Positions 22,148-46,496 of a DNA stretch of 46,850 nt are shown one piece after another. Source of the DNA: an uncultured Bacilli bacterium (GTDB taxonomy: Bacteria; Bacillota_I; Bacilli_A; RF39; UBA660); the NCBI GenBank assembly GCA_947626055.1, contig CANQQP010000006.1, positions 1 through 46,850 on the forward strand. Direction: 5' to 3'. The notes under the pieces are model-generated. The model searched no databases and had not been told where the DNA came from. It saw only the letters and a program-made list of their open reading frames with translations. The position numbers and the translations under genes are program-made. Each line of letters opens with the position of its first letter. The first letter of the stretch is position 1.

Positions 22148-22219
22148 AGTATTTACCTCCTATGGTATTTTATGAAAATATGCAAAAGAAAACTGTGTGT
22201 ATATAATAACATTCCCCCT

Positions 22220-22250
22220 TTGACAATAAATTAGGGGGGGGGGGTATAAT
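22220..22250 (+). promoter_or_regulatory. Putative phase-variable promoter with G11 spacer
   Basis: TTGACA (22220-22225) and TATAAT (22245-22250) are both consensus but 19 bases apart, two more than optimal. The spacer ends in 11 consecutive G (22234-22244) that touch the -10 box. Loss of one or two G by slipped-strand pairing would bring the spacer to 18 or 17 and strengthen the promoter. A C5 run (22214-22218) just upstream could pair with the G run. It drives the prepilin operon. Confidence 0.8.
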
Positions 22251-22285
22251 GAATACATAATATATAATATTTAGGGAGTGGACAT

Positions 22286-24205
22286 ATGAATAAAAAAGGT
22301 TTTACACTTGTAGAATTATTGGCAGTTATTGTAATACTAGGTATTTTGATTTCTCTAGCTGTGCCATCAGTATTTTCAGTTTTAGATAACAGTAAAAATA
22401 AAATTAATGATGCAAAACAAAAAGAATATGAATCCTTAGCTAGGATTTGGGGAAATGATTTTGCCGATTCATTGTCAAATAATCAGTGTTATTTTATGAG
22501 CTTAAATTATATGGTTAAAAATGGTTTAAGTGCAGATTTACCTGAAGATATTGATGAAGATGTAGAAAAAGCTGGTGTCGAAATTACGAAAAAAAATAAT
22601 AGACTTAATTATCAATATAGTACAAATAGTTCTTGTCAAACAGTTGATAATTTATCACCTACACTTGTAGATTATTCCGATGATGAAACTATTGTCATAG
22701 CATCGGATGATAAAGTTCCAACTACAGATCCGACAGTTAAATACCCTGATATAGAACAAGTTTATTCTGAGATTGGCGAAGATACAACAGGAGCAAATAA
22801 GCCCGAATTTGATAAAGTATTTCCTGAGGCCGTTCCAGTAGTTTATGATGAAAGTTGTGATTATGATAATGGCTGTTGGCGTGTAGCTGATCCTTCCAAA
22901 AATTGGTATAACTATGGTAAAGGAATTTGGGCTAATATTGCTATTTTATCTCCTTCTAGTAATTATTGTAATAGGACACATGATGTTATTTGTTTAGATG
23001 AAATAGCGAAACATCCAGCAAGTTACTATAAAAACAATCTTGGCATTCAAATATCCATGGATGATATACAAAGTATGTATGTTTGGATTCCTCAATTTAG
23101 TGTCAATAATGTTGATACAAGTAGAGGTGATTATCCTAATATCGATGTTACTTTTACCAATATAGCAAATGTTAATACCTCCTCTTTGCATCGTGCCTTT
23201 ATACATACTACTAAGTTAAAAGTTATAAAAGGGTTTTGGGTTCAAAAGTTTGAAGGTAATAAAATGTATGCAAAAATTTCTAGATATCAAAAAACAAATG
23301 GTGGGGATACTTCGGATGTAGTATGGTTGAATGATGTAATGACTTCTGCCAATCTAATAACAAATTTTGAATGGGGAGCAATAGAATATTTAGCGTATTC
23401 TCAATATGGTATAAAAAATAATAGTATTTGTAATGGACAGATAAAGCCAACATATCAATATTCTTTAAATAAAACCGACTCTTATAAAGTTTCTTACTCG
23501 GGAGTCTCATATGATGGAAATCAAAAATACATTTCGTATGATGGCAGGCAATTTAGTTATTTTGGAGGTAGTTTTGAATCAGCTAATCCGAATCAAGATA
23601 TTTATTTAAATGATCCAATCGAAAATAGGCAGTCCGCTTATTGTAAAAGTACTTCTGGAACTGTATATGGAGTGTATGATATGGCTGGGGGCTTTCCCGA
23701 ATTTACTTTTTTAACAATGAAAAATAAGGAAAATAAACAAATAGAGTTCGTTGGTAGATGGATAACCTCAAATAAAAGTGAAATTAATGGGTGTCAGGGA
23801 ACTATTAAAAAAGAAGATTTGTATATTAAAGATGGTTATGTAACATCGATAACTATGCGAAGAAACGTACCTGGTGCTAATACTTATCCTTATAATGATG
23901 ATGAAAACAACTCTAAAGGATCAGTTAAGTATGATGGAATGAAAGACTTTCAAAAGTATGCGGAAGAAAAATCTTTCCCTTATTGTGGCAAACTGAGTTC
24001 AAGTGCTGCGAGTAGTGTTTATAAAAATGTGACTTCATCTAATAGAAACTCTTTCTATGAGGCTCATATAGCAATGATAAGGGGCTCTGAGAGTATATTT
24101 GATTTTAGTTCTACTAGGTTAAATAATGTTTATTATAAAGGTAGATATTGGCCGGATCTTGGAAGTACGAATGCTATTATGAGGAATGTGTATTTAAATG
24201 AATAA
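22286..24205 (+). CDS. Large prepilin-like surface protein with FGE/lectin-like C-terminus
   Basis: The 639-residue protein begins with a class III-type prepilin signal: MNKKG then FTLVELLAVIVILGILIS, cleavage expected after Gly5 with Glu at mature position 5. It is much longer than a normal pilin. The C-terminal half contains YGVYDMAGGFPEF, like the GxYDMxGxxxE signature of formylglycine-generating-enzyme/C-type-lectin folds, and later IAMIRGSES followed by MRNVY, at the place where family members read RGG...RPV. It may be a pilus-borne or membrane-bound adhesin. AGGGAGTGG precedes the ATG. First gene of a four-gene prepilin operon controlled by the G11 promoter. Confidence 0.82.
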   Translation: MNKKGFTLVELLAVIVILGILISLAVPSVFSVLDNSKNKINDAKQKEYESLARIWGNDFADSLSNNQCYFMSLNYMVKNGLSADLPEDIDEDVEKAGVEITKKNNRLNYQYSTNSSCQTVDNLSPTLVDYSDDETIVIASDDKVPTTDPTVKYPDIEQVYSEIGEDTTGANKPEFDKVFPEAVPVVYDESCDYDNGCWRVADPSKNWYNYGKGIWANIAILSPSSNYCNRTHDVICLDEIAKHPASYYKNNLGIQISMDDIQSMYVWIPQFSVNNVDTSRGDYPNIDVTFTNIANVNTSSLHRAFIHTTKLKVIKGFWVQKFEGNKMYAKISRYQKTNGGDTSDVVWLNDVMTSANLITNFEWGAIEYLAYSQYGIKNNSICNGQIKPTYQYSLNKTDSYKVSYSGVSYDGNQKYISYDGRQFSYFGGSFESANPNQDIYLNDPIENRQSAYCKSTSGTVYGVYDMAGGFPEFTFLTMKNKENKQIEFVGRWITSNKSEINGCQGTIKKEDLYIKDGYVTSITMRRNVPGANTYPYNDDENNSKGSVKYDGMKDFQKYAEEKSFPYCGKLSSSAASSVYKNVTSSNRNSFYEAHIAMIRGSESIFDFSSTRLNNVYYKGRYWPDLGSTNAIMRNVYLNE

Positions 24206-24707
24206 TAAAGGATTTGTATTTGTTGAATCAATTGTTGTAAGTGTATGTATTTTAGTTATTACTATACCATTATATATCTTGACCTTAAACACTTTATCCT
24301 CTTTTAAGGTGAGAAGTTCTTACGATTCTGTAAATCATTTATATGATTTAAACACAATAAAAATATTTCTATATCGAAATGGTGATGTTAATATATTATG
24401 TGATAAAGTAGATAAAGATAAAACAATTTTATCCATTTATCAACTTAGCTTTGGAAGTAATGATAAAAATAACGTATATATGGGTTTAAAAAATCAAATG
24501 AAAATAAAAAAATTATTTTTTACTCACTTTAATATTAATTTAGCAGCAAACAATAAAATTAATAATTTAATAAAAAAGGATACTAAGTTGTATAATTATT
24601 TAAATTATTTAAATAAGGATCAGACTGTTAATAAATATTTATATCGATTAGTTGCTGAGTTTGAAGATGGTAATTTTGCTTCAATAAATATGTATAGAAC
24701 AGAGTAG
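24198..24707 (+). CDS. Prepilin-like minor pseudopilin
   Basis: A 169-residue protein with a prepilin signal, MNNKG then FVFVESIVVSVCILVITI, including Glu at mature position 5. The rest is a short soluble part rich in Lys and Asn. It overlaps the preceding gene by eight bases, showing cotranscription. Similar small proteins act as minor pilins priming type IV pili or competence pseudopili, but the match here is only by the N-terminus and gene order. Confidence 0.78.
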   Translation: MNNKGFVFVESIVVSVCILVITIPLYILTLNTLSSFKVRSSYDSVNHLYDLNTIKIFLYRNGDVNILCDKVDKDKTILSIYQLSFGSNDKNNVYMGLKNQMKIKKLFFTHFNINLAANNKINNLIKKDTKLYNYLNYLNKDQTVNKYLYRLVAEFEDGNFASINMYRTE

Positions 24708-24714
24708 GGAAATT

Positions 24715-25179
24715 ATGAATAAAAAAGGTATAATGTTAGTGGAATTACTTATAAGTATTGTATTTACTTCTATAATTTTAATAGGTATAACATCTATTAT
24801 TGTAAATATGCTAAATCTTTTAAATCAAGGTATTGTTTATAAAATAGAAAATGAGGAAAAAACTAGTATTTATAACTATATTGCTCCTAAATTTGCTAAA
24901 TATAATATAAAAAATATTACTAAGAATCAAAATAATAATTATACAATTGAATGTGATAAAGACTATACTATGAATATAAGCATTGAAAATCAAAATCTAA
25001 ATATAGATTCTCAGCAATATAAAAAAGATAAATTTATTAAGTATAATAGTTTGAAATTAGAAAGAAAACAGCAGGGTGAAGAATCTTATATATTATTAAC
25101 AATTGATATGACGTTATTAAATAAAAATTCAAATATTGTAATATATTATGTTAATGATGAATATAACGGTGAGATATAA
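24715..25179 (+). CDS. Prepilin-like minor pseudopilin (ComGF-like)
   Basis: A 154-residue protein with a prepilin signal, MNKKG then IMLVELLISIVFTSIILIG, with Glu at mature position 5. The soluble domain has alternating polar strands (YTIECDKDYTMNISIENQ) and ends with a beta pair, resembling ComGF-type pseudopilins in size and layout. It lies seven bases after the previous prepilin gene with AGGGAAATT ahead of its ATG. The exact subtype is uncertain. Confidence 0.75.
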   Translation: MNKKGIMLVELLISIVFTSIILIGITSIIVNMLNLLNQGIVYKIENEEKTSIYNYIAPKFAKYNIKNITKNQNNNYTIECDKDYTMNISIENQNLNIDSQQYKKDKFIKYNSLKLERKQQGEESYILLTIDMTLLNKNSNIVIYYVNDEYNGEI

Positions 25180-38449: not shown

Positions 38450-38489
38450 CAATTTTAATATATCACAAATAAAAAAGGAAGTGTTCCCA

Positions 38490-41400
38490 ATGAAGGAAAT
38501 TAAAAGCTTGGAAAATATAAAAAAAGAACTATTAGCGTTAGGGCGAAAAAATGGATTTATCACCTTTGATGATATTGATAATGTTACTAGCGGTTTTACA
38601 GTGGACAATGAAATCTTAAATGATTTATATAATTTTTTTGCTGTCAATAATATTAAATTAAAAGATGAGGATTTATCAGAATCAATAGATAAAAAATCCT
38701 TGGAAATTGAGGATTTAAGTGCAGAAGTTAGTCTAAAAGATTCAACACATGCTTATTTAAAAGAAATTGGTCAAATAAAATTATTAACAGAATCCCAAGA
38801 GCGAGAATTAGCTAAAGCGAGCGCTCAAGGTGACACTGAAGCTAACAAAAGATTAGTTGAGGCTAATTTGCGATTAGTTGTTTCTGTTGCTCGAAGATAT
38901 ATAGGCCGCGGTCTTGATTTATTAGATTTAATTCAGGAAGGTAATGGAGGCCTTATGAAGGCTGTTAAACTATATGATTATACTAAAGGTTTTCGTTTTT
39001 CTACTTATGCCACTTGGTGGATAAGACAAGCTATTACGCGAGCTTTAGCATATTCATCACGAACAATTAGAATACCGGTTTATATGGAGAACGAAATCAA
39101 TAAGTTAATTAAGACTCAAAGAATGTTAACATACAAACTTAACCGGGAGCCAAGCGAAGAAGAAATTGTTGCAGAATTAGGAATTACTATTAAAGAATTG
39201 CATAAACTAAAGAAATATTCACAACCTACGGTTTCTTTAGAATCTAAAGTGGGGGATGAAGAAGATGCGGAATTTCAAGATTTTATTCCTGATGATTATG
39301 ATTTAGAGGAGACGGCTATAGACCAAATAGGTAATAGCGATCTTTTACAAGCTATAACTAAAGTTTTGACACCTAGAGAACAAGAAGTCCTTTTTTTAAG
39401 ATTTGGTATAAAAGATGGCCGACAATATAAATTAGAAGAAATAGCTCAAAAATATAATGTAACGAGAGAGAGAATTAGACAAATTATCGTCAAGGCATTG
39501 CGTAAATTACGTGATAATTCTTCTTCTAAACATCTAAAAAGCTATTTAAAAGACGAATCTTCAAATTCTCCAGTTATCGAGCAAATGAATATAGTCGCTT
39601 ATTTTAAAATTGATTTAAAATTCATTAAAGTGGCTTTAACATTTATGCCCCTAAATGTAGTAAAATCTATTCATCAAACATTTGGCTCTAATTTAAATGC
39701 TACAATTACTCCGCAAACAATTGTAAAGGATGCCCAACCTTTAATAAATTTTATCAATCGCTATCGCCTGCTTTATACCCAAACTCTTTCTGAAGAAGTA
39801 ATTAAATCAGCAGTAAGGAATCCAGATCTTTTTGAAATGTATCAAAAAGGAAGGTTAAAAGATATTTATACATTGTTTAAAGATTATACTCCTAAATATA
39901 TAAATTACTGTTTGAGTCAAAATAAGCATTACAATGATCTACTACATCTAAGATATAAAAAGGAATTTAATGTTACTAATGTATTTTTAGATGCTAATAG
40001 TTTTAAGCGGGCTTTAACTTCTTTTAGAGCCTGGTTAGAAATAGAAAGAGATGATTACTTGGCGAAAAAATCTCTTACTATAGATCAATATTTTAATTTA
40101 CCTTTTAATATTATTAATACTATTACACTTTATCTATCTGCGGAAGAATATAAAATGTTAGTTAGCCATTTTGGCCCTAGTTTAAAAGATAAATATTTCT
40201 TTGAAAATGATGATGAATTAGAAGGATTAAAAACTAAATTTGCGCAAATTTTAAAAAATCCTGAAAGCTTTCCAAAATATTTTATATCTTTTAATGATTA
40301 TTTTCAAAATTTTAATAAAGAATATACCAGCTTTATGTTAAAACTTTATCCAGATAAAGATCAAATTTTAACTTTGCTTCAAAATGATTTAAATAAGTCT
40401 GTAAGATTAACAGTTAAAAATCAAGAATACTTTGATTCTCTAAATAAATTTTATCTTAAGTATTACCCTTTATATTTAGAAGACCCTGAAGAATTCAAAC
40501 TTATTGCCCATGATTATTTAAACTTTAAAACAGGAAACAGTCTTTCTGTAGGTATATATAATTATTTACAAAGATTTTCTAGCGTTAGGTATTCCAAAAT
40601 TATTGTTGATATATTGTTAAATGGTTTAAATAAATATGAAATAAAAAAATTAAAAAAGGTTTGGCAACAAAATGATTACCAAACAAGTAAGACTCTATTT
40701 GTTAATAATCAAACGGATCTCCGATTTTACAATATAATTATGAAATTAAATTTCATTTTAAAACAAATATATCAAACCCAAATACCTTTTAATGTTATAA
40801 AACAAAGTGCGGAAAATGTGGCTCGTAATGTGGTATACTTTAGCTCTGAAAATATTTATGAATTAATTGATAAAGATAAAAAATATCCTAAAGAATTAAT
40901 AGATTTTATTTTAGATAACGTAAATGAAAAAAATACGCAATTTTTACAAAAAATATATAGGAAAGAAAACTATAGAAATGTTTGTAGACATATTTGTTTA
41001 GCTTCTGATAAAGCCCACTTGGATAGATTAATAAGGATAATAAGAAATGATTTAGAAGAATTATCAAAGGTTGTTAACCAAGATTATTCACGAGAAACAT
41101 TAAAAATTCTATATCAAAATTTACCGACAAAAAAATTAGTAAAGACCACAGCTTTTACTATATATAATAAAATTCCTGAATTTGATCGAGAATATATAGA
41201 ATTTACGCTTCGTTCAACAACCTGTCAAAGAAGAGAAAAACTCGAATACTTTTTTGGCTCAGATTTTAACAAAATGGTAGATTATCAAAATTTAAATGAA
41301 AATGAAAAGCGAGTGTTAGATAAATTAGTATTTAATTTAAAAACTACTTTAAAGAAAAATTTTGAGAATTATACAAAAAGCAAGAAATACAAAAATACTT

Positions 41401-44400
41401 TCCCTTATAATACAATTTACTTTCAAATAAAAAATAGATTGCCCGAATATAATTTATCAAAAGAATTTATAACTTATATTTTAAAGGATTTAAAAAGTAA
41501 ATTTCTTATTAGAAAATTTAAAGACTTAAACTTTGATATTATTCCTGTTTTCAATAATATTAGTGAAGAACAAGTTTATATTAATATAGTAAAAAAAGTA
41601 GTAAATCAAATACAAGAAATTTATAAAATGGCTCCCACTTTTGATTTAGAAACTTTAAAATATATTTATGATAGAACCAAAAACGTAAATTCTTTTAAAC
41701 CTTTTACGATATATGATAAATATAAAGAATATACCCGTGAATATGTAGATTTTATTCTTTATCAAACACAAGGTTTTAGAAGAGAAACTTTAATAAAATA
41801 CTTCGGAGAAGATTTTAATAGAAGAATTAGTTTTGAAGATTTAACTGAGGATGAAAGAAAACAGTTAAGTGTTTTAATAAAAAAATTAAAATTATGTTTA
41901 GAACAGAATTTAGAAGAATATGAAAAAAGTAAGAAATACAAAAATGTTTTCCCATACAATACAATTTATTTTCATATAAAAAATAAATTGCCAGAATATA
42001 ATTTATCGAAAGAATTTATAATTTATATCTTAAAAACTTTAAATCAAAAATTTATTCATGATACTTTTCCAAATGAAAATTTTGATATTATTCCTGTGTT
42101 TACAAGTCGTTATGAAAAAAGGACCTATAATAAGCTTATTAACAATGTAAGTGATATGATAAAAAAGGTTTACGATAATGCTCCGGCTTTTGATTTGGAA
42201 ACTTTAAAAATAACCCATAACCAAAACCAAGGTAAAAATTTATATGAATTATTGCCTAATTATCCTCAAGAGTATATTCGATTAACTGCAGATATTTATC
42301 CTACTCGCTCCAAATTAATAGCTTATTTTGGTAACGATTATAGTCAAAAGTTTGATAGCAACCGAATGGACGCTAAAGAAAAAGCAAAATTTGGTATTAT
42401 GTTAAAACATTTTGAATGTAAATTACAAGCTAATTATGAAGACTATCAAAAAGGTGTTTTCGAAAGGAAAACTAATACTCTTTATCCGCCTTTAACTATA
42501 TATGACTACATTCAAAAACCAGTTATCCAATTTAATTTTTCTAAAGAAATTATTGATTATATGCTGAAAAATATTAGTCCGTCTCAAGAAGAAATATTAA
42601 TGAGAATAAGAAAAGAAGACTTTGCCACCGTGAAAATGGATAATTTGCCTAATAAAGACTGTGTTGCATTTGATAAAATGGTTAAAAGCATTCGTAGTCG
42701 CTTAATTAAAATGTATAGCCAAACAGATGACTATAGCTTAGAAAATTTAATTAAAGTATATAATAAGATTACGCGGCATGTAAGGTATTATAACTTGTTT
42801 GATAAATGTGGAGATTATTCTAAAGAATATATTCTTTTAATACTAGAAAAAAACACAAAGTTAAAGGCAATTTTCACTAAATATTTTGGTGAAAACTTCG
42901 TAACAAGAATTGACACTGCTTTATTAGATGAAAATCAAAAAGAAGAAATATATATTAAAATTAATTGTTTAAAAGTGATATTAAAAAGATATAGCTCAAG
43001 ATATAAAACTAATGGTAATGTTTCTTATCAACAGCTTTGGAAAAAAATCCACACATTAACTATTTATGAATATATTCAGAAAAATCAAAATGATTTTCAT
43101 TATGATAAAGAAATAATTGATTTATGCCTAGATGATTTACAAGACCGCGCGGAAGAGGTTTTCAAACAAGCTTGGCAACAGGACGATTATAGGCAATCCA
43201 ATACGTTAGTTATTCCTGAAAATGCTAATCTTTTCTATAATACAATTAGTAAAATTAAAGCAAAACTTTATAATTTATATTCTCAGGCTGAAAAGAATAA
43301 TTTAACTAAGGTAGAAGATATAAAAAGGCTTTATTATCACAATTCGAAATATGCTAGAGAATTTAACTTGTTTGATTTATATAAAGATTATGACCAAGAG
43401 TATGTAAGCCAGGTAGCAAGATTAATTCGTTCAAATTATTTAATTGAATTATTTTCTCCAACTTTGGATAAAAAAATTTCTATACAAAATTTTAATAAAA
43501 AAGAAAAGAAGAAATTTTATAATAATATGTCACTATTAAAAAAATCCTTAGAAAATCCGCCAACTTCTTATAAATATTTAAGTTTTAACTTGTTGGATAG
43601 TTTTTCTGACTATGAAAATGAATATATTTTATGGATGCTAAAACGTTACATTCAAAAAGATTATTTAATTAGTATTTTTGGTGAAAACTTAGAAAATATA
43701 GTTGATATGAAAAAGTTGGATAAAAATCAGAGACGAAAATTGCACTATAAAATAAATAATTTTAAAAGATTTTTAAAAACCCATTATAAAAGTTATATAC
43801 AAGATAAAAAAGCTTTAGAATGCCATCTGTCTAAAGATAGTTCTACTTATAAAAACATAGATATATATGAATATATAAAACAAAAGTTAGACTTTCCATG
43901 TAATAATGATATAATTGACTTTGTTTTAGATAATCTGAATGAAAATTATGAAAATACTTTAAAGGAAGTATGGCAACAGGAAGATTATCGTCATTCTTCT
44001 AATTTAAAGGTTAATAAACCAAATAGATTTTACTATATCATGGACCGAATAATTAGTAATTTAAAAAAACTATATACTGAAGCAAACAATGATTATGACT
44101 TTGAAAATTTAAAAAACTTATATAGAAAATTATATCCGAAAATTTTTGGAAAAAAGTATAATAAAAAGACTATAACTATCTATCAATTATTAAGGTCGAA
44201 GCACCGTAAATATTCTACTTCACTTATAGATTTTGTTTTAGATAATTTAGATGATAACGCCACTAAAGTGTTAGTTGATGCGTGGCAACAGGAAGATTAT
44301 CGCCATAGTAATAATTTAGTTTATCCAGCCGATATAAATCAATTTAATGCTATTATTAATCAAATAAAAGCTGATTTAAATTATATTTATGATAACGTCA

Positions 44401-45596
44401 AAAATCGAAATGATGTTGAAAAGATAAAATCAGCTTATTATAGCTTGCATCCTGAACTTTTTATAAAATTAATTAATATGTGTGGCAAATATGAAGAAGA
44501 ATATGTTTACTTTATGGCTTCTAAAGCGAGTGAGCCGCGCTATAGTTATTTTATTAGATTATTTGGCGAAGATTATCAAAAAGTCGTTAATATTAAAACC
44601 TTAACAACAGAAGAGTGGGGAGAATTAAAAGAGCAAATCCGCAAATTTAAATATATTCTATCTGTGAACCATAAAGCCTATTTAGAAGATAAAGAGGGAT
44701 TTATGAAATCAAAACAAAAGAAAGGTTCAGTTAAAATTACTAAATCGATCGTTAAATTGACGGATTTATATGATAATTTTGAAGAAGAATACGTTTACTT
44801 TATGGCTCAAAAATCACGAGAGCCAAGACATACCTATTTAATTAAATTGTTTGGTGAAGATTATCAAAAAACAATCAATCTGGAAACATTAACTCAAAAA
44901 GAAAAAACTAAATTGGATGAAGACATTCGTAAATTTAAACATATTTTGACTGTGAACCATAAAGCTTATTTAGAAAATAAAACTGAGTTTATGCGACCAA
45001 AGCAAAGAGTAGTCAAAACTAAAAATTCAAAACCTCTCGCCCGATATAGCCTTAAAACCGCAATAGAAAAAATTGATAATAGTTATCCTTATCATGAAGA
45101 AATTATTAAAATGATTATAACAAAAGAGTTATCATTGTTTGAAAAGAAAAACTATCAATATATGCTTACGACGACAGCGAAAAAGTTGAAAGCTTTGTAT
45201 AAGCAAGCGCATGATCCTAATGATTTAGAAGAAATTTTAAGACTATATGAGCAAAATTATAAGGTAATTAGTTCCAATAAACTAGAAATATTAAATCAAA
45301 GGAATAAAAAAATCAAAGAAATTTTAACTAATTCTGACTTAACAATTAAAATGCAAGAATATCTAATGAAAATTAAAGTATATGCGACACTATTATATAT
45401 TCCAGAAATTGCCGAATACAATTTCCCACTAGAAACTATTGCTTATATACTTGATTTAGATAAATTAACGACCTTAAAATATATTAAAGAAGGTTTACAA
45501 GTTATTAAAGAAAATTGTGTTGATTTTTTAGAAACAGAAGTATTAGAAACTTCTAATAATAAATTAATCAGGGATTTAAATGAAATTAATAATTAG
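38490..45596 (+). CDS. Giant RpoD-like sigma factor with ~2000-residue repeat tail
   Basis: I chose ATG 38490, ten bases after AAGGA; a GTG at 38481 touches that SD. The product is 2368 residues. Residues about 1-60 resemble region 1.1; 84-345 is a complete primary-type sigma core: [16 protein letters not shown] (1.2), [16 protein letters not shown] and [17 protein letters not shown] (2), [15 protein letters not shown] (2.4-3.0), [13 protein letters not shown] and VTRERIRQI (4). Region 2.4 has YSS where SigA has DQA. From about 500 to 2170 come alternating helical units of 75-105 residues. One type centres on WQQEDYRHS (aligned positions 725, 823, 1010, 1193, 1373, 1562, 1828, 1932). The other centres on LIKYFGEDF (561, 922, 1105, 1280, 1466, 1655, 1730, 2025, 2121). 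The C-terminus ([20 protein letters not shown]) again resembles a sigma-4 helix-turn-helix. No signal peptide. Confidence 0.93.
40170..44870 (+). repeat. Degenerate protein-level repeat array in the sigma tail
   Basis: At least seventeen units are recognised by conserved anchors. The F of FG(E/P/S/N)(D/N) motifs is encoded at 40170, 41253, 41802, 42327, 42885, 43452, 43677, 44562 and 44850. The W or equivalent of WQQ-type motifs is encoded at 40662, 40956, 41517, 42066, 42606, 43173, 43971 and 44283. Some neighbours are very alike ([19 protein letters not shown] at about 41380 and its copy at about 41930; WQQEDYRHS twice), showing recent duplication, while others are old and divergent. Confidence 0.8.
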
Positions 45597-45617: not shown

Positions 45618-46496
45618 ATGGATAATTTAGAAAATAATAAACTAGAAGAAAATGATAATTCTATACAAATAAGTAATCAAAAAAAGGAATATGAATTGAT
45701 AAAATTATATCAGGAAACTCATGATTCCAAATATTTTAGAGCCCTTGTTGCTATGCATCAAAACTTTATTTACCAGCAAGCTAACAAATATCATCCTTTA
45801 GATCCGACTTTTGATAAAGATGATATTGAACAGGAAGCAATGATTGGCTTTATGAAAGCAGTAGAGCGTTTTGATGTAGAAAAAAATAATTGCTTGCTTA
45901 CTTATGCGGGCTACTGGATAAATCAAAATATTCAGCAAAGCATACTCAAGTATGGTAAAACAATTAGATTGCCACAAGAGATTCAGGAGTTACAGTGGAA
46001 ATATAGGTTGACTATAAATAAATATTTAAAAGAAGAAAACCGAATTCCTTCTTTAGAGGAAATAGCCAAAGAAATTAAAGTCAGTGTTGATAAATTAGAA
46101 AGGATATTGGGTAGTACTAATGAACTTATTTCTTTAAATCAAAAAATGACGGCGGATGAAAAAGATGAATTAGGAGCTAAAATTCCTGATAATAATCAAA
46201 CTCCCGAAGAAAAAGTAATTCAAAAATTTATTAGCCAAGATTTGTTAAAAGCTCTCAATATTTTGAAACCAATAGATGCTAAAATTTTAATGCTGCATTA
46301 TGGACTTTATGATGGTAGAGTTCGAACATTGGATGAGGTAGGTAATATAATTGGTATAACTAAGCAAAGAGTATCTATTAGAGAGCGCAAAGCTTTAAAG
46401 AAACTTAAATATTGTCCCAAAACTTCTAATTTACAAAGCTATATAAAAGAAGATTATGATGAAAATAAATTGACTAAAAAACTTCGGAAACGTTAA
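45618..46496 (+). CDS. Second sigma-70 family factor
   Basis: A 292-residue sigma-70-type protein starting 21 bases after the giant gene, with AAAGGAAT ahead of its ATG, so almost surely cotranscribed. It has region 2 (DDIEQEAMIGFMKAVERFD, then LLTYAGYWINQNIQQSI, TIRLPQEIQEL), region 3 (RIPSLEEIAKEIKVSVDKL) and region 4 (DAKILMLHYGLYDGR, LDEVGNIIGITKQRVSIRE). The region 2.3 aromatic pair WW of primary sigmas is YW here and region 1.2 is reduced, which marks it as an alternative factor with its own promoter set. The C-terminus is basic (LTKKLRKR). No anti-sigma factor is seen next to it. Confidence 0.9.
   Translation: MDNLENNKLEENDNSIQISNQKKEYELIKLYQETHDSKYFRALVAMHQNFIYQQANKYHPLDPTFDKDDIEQEAMIGFMKAVERFDVEKNNCLLTYAGYWINQNIQQSILKYGKTIRLPQEIQELQWKYRLTINKYLKEENRIPSLEEIAKEIKVSVDKLERILGSTNELISLNQKMTADEKDELGAKIPDNNQTPEEKVIQKFISQDLLKALNILKPIDAKILMLHYGLYDGRVRTLDEVGNIIGITKQRVSIRERKALKKLKYCPKTSNLQSYIKEDYDENKLTKKLRKR

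Follow-up and report, generated by a model that had tools for sequence, protein, structure and literature searches.

A poly-G tract in the spacer of a prepilin operon promoter: one site of a probable phase-variable promoter set in uncultured gut Bacilli

Introduction

Why does a promoter of an uncultured gut bacterium carry eleven consecutive guanines between its -35 and -10 boxes? The promoter precedes a prepilin operon of a member of the Bacilli and lies within the 46.85-kb stretch of DNA that was analysed here at its full length and is called the window below. The original prediction was that the G run is a phase switch, in which slippage would alter the distance between the two boxes and, in this way, the expression of surface-exposed proteins. 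Slippage in promoter spacers has so far been described for a small number of loci in human pathogens, while the candidate described here is a multi-copy set of promoters in uncultured gut commensals. If the prediction is true, surface proteins would be switched at random in a large section of the gut microbiota that is still unstudied. In the literature outside subscription journals and preprints we found no earlier report of poly-G spacer promoters in gut Bacilli or Clostridia.

Results

The promoter consists of the -35 box TTGACA (22220-22225, + strand), which is identical in 10 poly-G promoters of the same genome, a spacer of 19 bp, and the -10 box TATAAT (22245-22250, +). The spacer is made up of a non-repeated part, ATAAATTA (22226-22233, +), and the G11 homopolymer (22234-22244, +), the proposed slippage switch, whose length differs among paralogous copies with identical flanks. 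Re-reading of the window letters gave the same positions for the boxes, the spacer and the tract as the original prediction. The resulting layout, TTGACA-N8-G11-TATAAT, places a homopolymer between recognisable boxes, as in the porA and tp0126 promoters. The sequence ATAAATTA is common to the window promoter and the poly-G promoter of contig C11, and the remaining copies carry ATAAGACAT instead. Transcription is predicted to start near 22257, upstream of a ribosome-binding site, AGGGAGTGG (22273-22281, +).

Apart from the G11 tract, the window has no run of G or C that reaches six bases. Under a first-order model, runs of at least 11 G or C are expected 0.0009 times in the window and 0.02 times in the genome, so the tract is very unlikely to be there by chance, as had been supposed; for runs of at least 9 G or C the expectation in the genome is 0.56. 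A single-strand DNA hairpin between C5 and the G run was no better than those of shuffled sequences (z 0.73).

The first gene of the operon (22286-24205, +, start codon ATG at 22286) encodes a 639-aa prepilin-like surface protein with the prepilin methylation motif (PF07963, E 3.5e-7) and a TIGR02532 match above the cut-off, which bears out the claim that the promoter drives prepilin-like products; their surface exposure is predicted. The second gene (24198-24707, +) overlaps the first by 8 bases. Its 169-aa product, with the N-terminus MNNKGFVFVESIVVSVCILVITIP, looks prepilin-like by eye and had no match in a Pfam search. The third ORF (24715-25179, +) encodes a prepilin-like protein of 154 aa with the N-terminus MNKKGIMLVELLISIVFTSIILIG and weak pseudopilin-type matches only. 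The same genome has a gene for a prepilin peptidase. Among eight congeners no full-length orthologue of the 639-aa protein was found, its N-terminal prepilin part alone giving matches, and none of the N-terminally similar prepilin genes of these congeners is preceded by a poly-G promoter.

Sigma-factor-like genes are also present in the window. A giant RpoD-like ORF of 2371 aa (38481-45596, +) contains complete sigma-70 regions 1.1-4 within aa 15-344; the stretch of about 2000 aa behind them is repetitive and looks helical. Directly downstream of this ORF lies a gene for a 292-aa sigma-70-like factor with regions 2-4 (45618-46496, +). A normal RpoD of 372 aa comes from another locus of the same genome. 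Long RpoD-like versions also occur in the genomes G006 (2667 aa), G004 (2376 aa), G008 (1561 aa) and G002 (1369 aa).

A search of the 1.05-Mb draft genome to which the window belongs (G000) for TTGACA, a run of at least nine G and TATAAT yielded 10 exact copies, and the reversed pattern, used as a control, yielded none. This genome contains 18 runs of at least 8 G (17 with 9 or more, one with exactly 8), and 14 of them are promoter tracts that abut a -10 box or are broken off beside it at a contig end. Two of these 14 have TCGACA as the -35 box, and in two the contig ends inside or just after the tract, the usual promoter stem standing before it. The other runs are located in cell-surface glycan genes (three) and in an FtsK-like gene (one). 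A fifteenth promoter, on contig C19 (L276:1100-2870, -), has the interrupted tract GGAGGGGG and a spacer of exactly 17 bp and precedes a gene for a camelysin/TasA-like protein; this interrupted, slippage-resistant copy is possibly a locked-on allele. In G006, an interrupted promoter tract on contig C24 gives a spacer of 19 bp and not 17.

Several of the poly-G promoters of the genome precede members of a protein family that begins with MKEKRIEKEIKKAQKKGIYNPKLKLGIV..GVSYAYYTG, has variable C-terminal parts and shows weak InlB-repeat or SpaA-like matches. Others stand before an 818-aa protein with OmpL47-type and dockerin-like matches, two secreted repeat proteins and, behind a G11 promoter (L041:4900-5640, -), a pair of small proteins that resemble type VII secretion substrates by eye and have no family match. 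A small protein of this last locus is 42% identical to a G006 homologue (L277:330-700, +) that is located behind an interrupted tract, GGGAGGGGG, with a 19-bp spacer.

The three tracts in glycan genes are G9-G10 runs (L049, reverse strand, 4801 and 8496; L050:5563-5572), all in frame as assembled. They are hosted by a 418-aa ORF (near the end, beside an epimerase gene), a glycosyltransferase/methyltransferase fusion and a 550-aa membrane protein, and probably give this genome phase variation at the level of translation.

The poly-G promoters are not restricted to this genome. The exact promoter was found in six of the nine species of the genus, in 7-21 copies each (21 in G003), with no matches to the reversed pattern, and each species has its own word between the -35 box and the tract. 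A seventh species, G004 (L278-L290), lacks the TTGACA..G..TATAAT arrangement, yet has about 10 poly-G promoters with different -35 elements; the designs CTTTACAACAAACC-G9-TATAAT and TTGCAAATTACACTAC-G9-TATAAT stand there before similar surface proteins. The order as a whole was represented by 385 genomes in 117 genera, of which 41 and 18, respectively, have the pattern, again with no reversed match, and a poly-C version of the promoter was found in none of the 385 genomes. A scan of GTDB genomes gave at least 119 matching stretches. The matches listed come from uncultured gut Bacilli and Clostridia, Saccharibacteria and Spirochaetes, and include the isolates Streptobacillus notomytis, Blautia luti and Pumilibacter muris; some of those in GC-rich genomes may be due to chance. 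The same pattern scan of IMG/VR gave no matches.

Tract length appears to vary more than the sequence around it. In the window's own genome, the copies on contigs C3 and C39 have G9 and G10, respectively, with no mismatches over 41 flank positions and two in the next 300 nt downstream, one differing position having been masked in advance. In G201, the members of a tandem array have G10, G9, G9 and G8 with no mismatches in 252 compared flank positions, the paralogous promoters of G005 have G6, G7 and G8 with identical flanks, and similar pairs, equal in their flanks and different in tract length, were found in G006, G058 and G218. Thus, between paralogous copies in six species, the length varies while the flanks stay constant. 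We interpret these differences as a footprint of slippage, which at the level of sequence is evolutionary evidence between loci. The fact that the near-copies stand almost all before genes of surface proteins and differ mainly in the number of G makes it very probable that the run is a random on/off switch of what the cell surface displays. Within species the lengths are narrowly distributed, most being G9-G10.

Loss of mismatch repair was considered as a driver of slippage and rejected, because each of the nine species in the genus has a MutS1. On contig C36 of the window's own genome, the mutS gene (G000:C36, 5424-8003) is followed at a short distance downstream by a poly-G promoter, where the contig ends.

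The nature of the products was assessed with a simple ORF caller and a hydrophobicity score applied to the first ORF behind each promoter. In the genus and family, an N-terminal hydrophobic segment (signal or anchor) was present in 47 of 55 first ORFs vs 20 of 70 neighbouring genes, and among the GTDB matches listed in 76 of 102 first ORFs vs 99 of 400 controls; overall, 75-85% of the first genes and 25-29% of the controls carry it. This bias is towards the class of targets expected for phase variation, with exposure at the cell surface being predicted from sequence.

The lengths of the spacers revealed a regularity. Ordinary promoters of the genus, sampled as TTGACA..TATAAT in three congeners that have no exact poly-G match, most often have a 17-bp spacer (34 of 62), in line with the predicted optimum that the window promoter would reach by losing two G from G11. 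The poly-G promoters of the family have 17-bp spacers in 5 of 174 cases vs these 34 of 62 (Fisher p 7e-19, a value that is over-optimistic because related, non-independent sites were pooled), their modes being 19 (94 of 174), 18 and 16 bp. The per-genome modes agree with an avoidance of 17 bp, which is the mode in only 1 of 44 genomes. Among the GTDB matches listed, spacers of 16 bp occur at 16 sites, those of 17 bp at 6 and those of 18 bp at 19, and poly-G sites with spacers of 14-16 bp exist as well. The gap at 17 bp is not produced by the 8-G threshold, since a looser search of seven genomes for runs of at least 5 G added just two sites, both with interrupted tracts. In a list for G003 and G005 that was made without a G threshold, all tracts of at least 7 G stood at spacings other than 17 bp; one G6 site of G005, with a different -10 junction, has a 17-bp spacer.

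Discussion

The architecture, the copy number of about 15 in the genome, the footprints between paralogues, the near-absence of 17-bp spacers and the association with exported proteins are observed directly in the DNA. Combined with the surface type of the products and the 17-bp optimum of ordinary promoters, they make a phase-variable promoter of the prepilin operon, as originally predicted, the best reading of this locus. In all likelihood the G11 tract belongs to a set of phase-variable sigma-70 promoters that is spread over the genome.

Under this reading, DNA polymerase would slip on the G run and add or lose one G during replication. The run sits between the consensus -35 and -10 boxes, and for this reason each slip would lengthen or shorten the spacer by 1 bp and alter the strength of the promoter. 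Such slippage presumably takes place at 22234-22244 in living cells. With G11 (19 bp) the promoter would be weak and with G9-G10 (17-18 bp) strong; expression is thus expected to rise as the window tract shortens to G9-G10. The prepilin operon and every other surface gene behind a poly-G promoter would then be expressed at random and independently in each cell lineage, and the surface of the population would become diversified. The benefit may be bet-hedging against host immunity, phage or a change of the niche.

The G run might, on the other hand, be a fixed structural part of the promoter: A-like, shorter poly-G DNA would move the optimum to 18-19 bp, the promoters would be constitutively strong and the tract differences nearly neutral. 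The family mode of 19 bp (94 of 174), the fact that G is never swapped for C and the narrow lengths within species are all compatible with such a part, but other lineages have spacers of 15-16 bp with the same G9, where a fixed geometric shift fails, and the poly-G spacers of porA and tp0126 have a 17-bp optimum (PMC7864442). The glycan-gene coding tracts of the same genome also point to phase variation rather than to a structural element, which we therefore regard as an unlikely explanation. It is more improbable still that the tract is a recognition element of a dedicated regulator or sigma factor, such as a MerR-type activator on 19-bp spacers or the giant RpoD-like factor (38481-45596). 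The spacer mode of 19 bp, the conserved species-specific words beside the tract and the existence of a second RpoD paralogue would suit a protein of this kind. MerR-type promoters, however, require a dyad within the spacer, and there is none in ATAAATTA plus G11; the flanking word differs among species and even among the copies of the window's own genome, sites of 14-16 bp exist, and G003 has 21 poly-G promoters with a single RpoD-like match.

That the runs are an artefact of assembly or sequencing (two-colour poly-G) or a product of chance is hardly credible. Several tracts do lie near contig ends, but the same promoter position is found inside the contigs of dozens of independent assemblies, those of isolates included, the reversed-pattern and poly-C controls are empty, and by chance the window would hold far less than one run of at least 11 G (0.0009). 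An invertible promoter (inverton) in which the G run is incidental would find some encouragement in the surface genes of gut bacteria, which are often inverton targets (PMC11892184). The window promoter is not surrounded by near-perfect inverted repeats, the longest pair being 31 nt with 74% complementarity, and we give an inverton next to no chance.

For the phase-variable reading, the shortage of 17-bp spacers has its simplest explanation in the assemblies showing the majority states of the populations, with the majority off-optimum. Many copies are two slips away from 17 bp, and this distance, the narrow lengths within species and the interrupted G006 copy at 19 bp count against the phase-variable reading, while the interrupted copy on contig C19, with its 17 bp, counts in its favour. 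An optimum shifted in G-rich DNA could account for spacers of 18-19 bp, but those of 15-16 bp would stay unexplained by it. That poly-C is entirely absent also speaks against slippage as the whole explanation, as it goes beyond what slippage alone predicts: slippage treats G and C alike, which means that either the G run helps RNA polymerase or C at this place is harmful. Poly-G always puts G just upstream of the -10 box, and if G is needed on the coding strand, the run may itself take part in recognition by RNA polymerase. A broader conjecture, tentative and in our judgement rather doubtful as a whole, is that poly-G spacer promoters are a widespread surface-antigen switch of gut bacteria (uncultured Bacilli, Clostridia and others, e.g., Saccharibacteria), that the run does more than slip and aids RNA polymerase recognition, and that populations stay mostly off-optimum, to either side of a 17-bp ON state that is avoided, with each cell expressing only a few out of many surface proteins. 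Both the avoidance of a 17-bp spacer and the lack of poly-C are new regularities, and the interest of the system lies in its scale, in this avoidance and in the strand polarity.

Of the precedents named in the original prediction, porA stands as an example of a spacer poly-G tract, and the other two do not. The Mycoplasma vsp genes are switched by DNA inversion and for this reason are not a precedent. In Neisseria meningitidis, the porA promoter has a poly-G spacer with a 17-bp optimum and serves a surface protein, and the poly-C of opc overlaps the -35 box and is not inside the spacer (PMC7864442), which makes opc a weaker precedent than first supposed. It shares with the window promoter the tuning of surface-protein transcription by homopolymer length, but is not a pure spacer switch. 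Treponema pallidum tp0126 is a closer match: the gene encodes an OmpW-like surface protein, and its poly-G tract lies between the -35 and -10 boxes with a 17-bp optimum (PMC7864442). The poly-G between the boxes and the surface protein are the same as in the window promoter, whereas here the promoters are multi-copy, belong to uncultured gut Bacilli and have perfect consensus boxes, a tract that touches TATAAT and a mode of 19 bp. porA is a single locus, whereas each of six congeners has 7-21 sister promoters in its genome. The tprE/G/J/L genes of T. pallidum, with poly-G upstream of the transcription start (PMC7864442), resemble our set in being paralogous surface-protein genes with a poly-G promoter each, but the tprL tract spans part of the -10 box and not the spacer. 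Coding G tracts of the Campylobacter type are similar to the three glycan-gene tracts of the same genome (L049, L050) and constitute a translational frameshift switch, whereas the window system would act through promoter spacing. As far as can be judged from sequence, it is best read as a phase-variable promoter system of the porA/tp0126 kind that is present in many copies and widely spread in gut bacteria.
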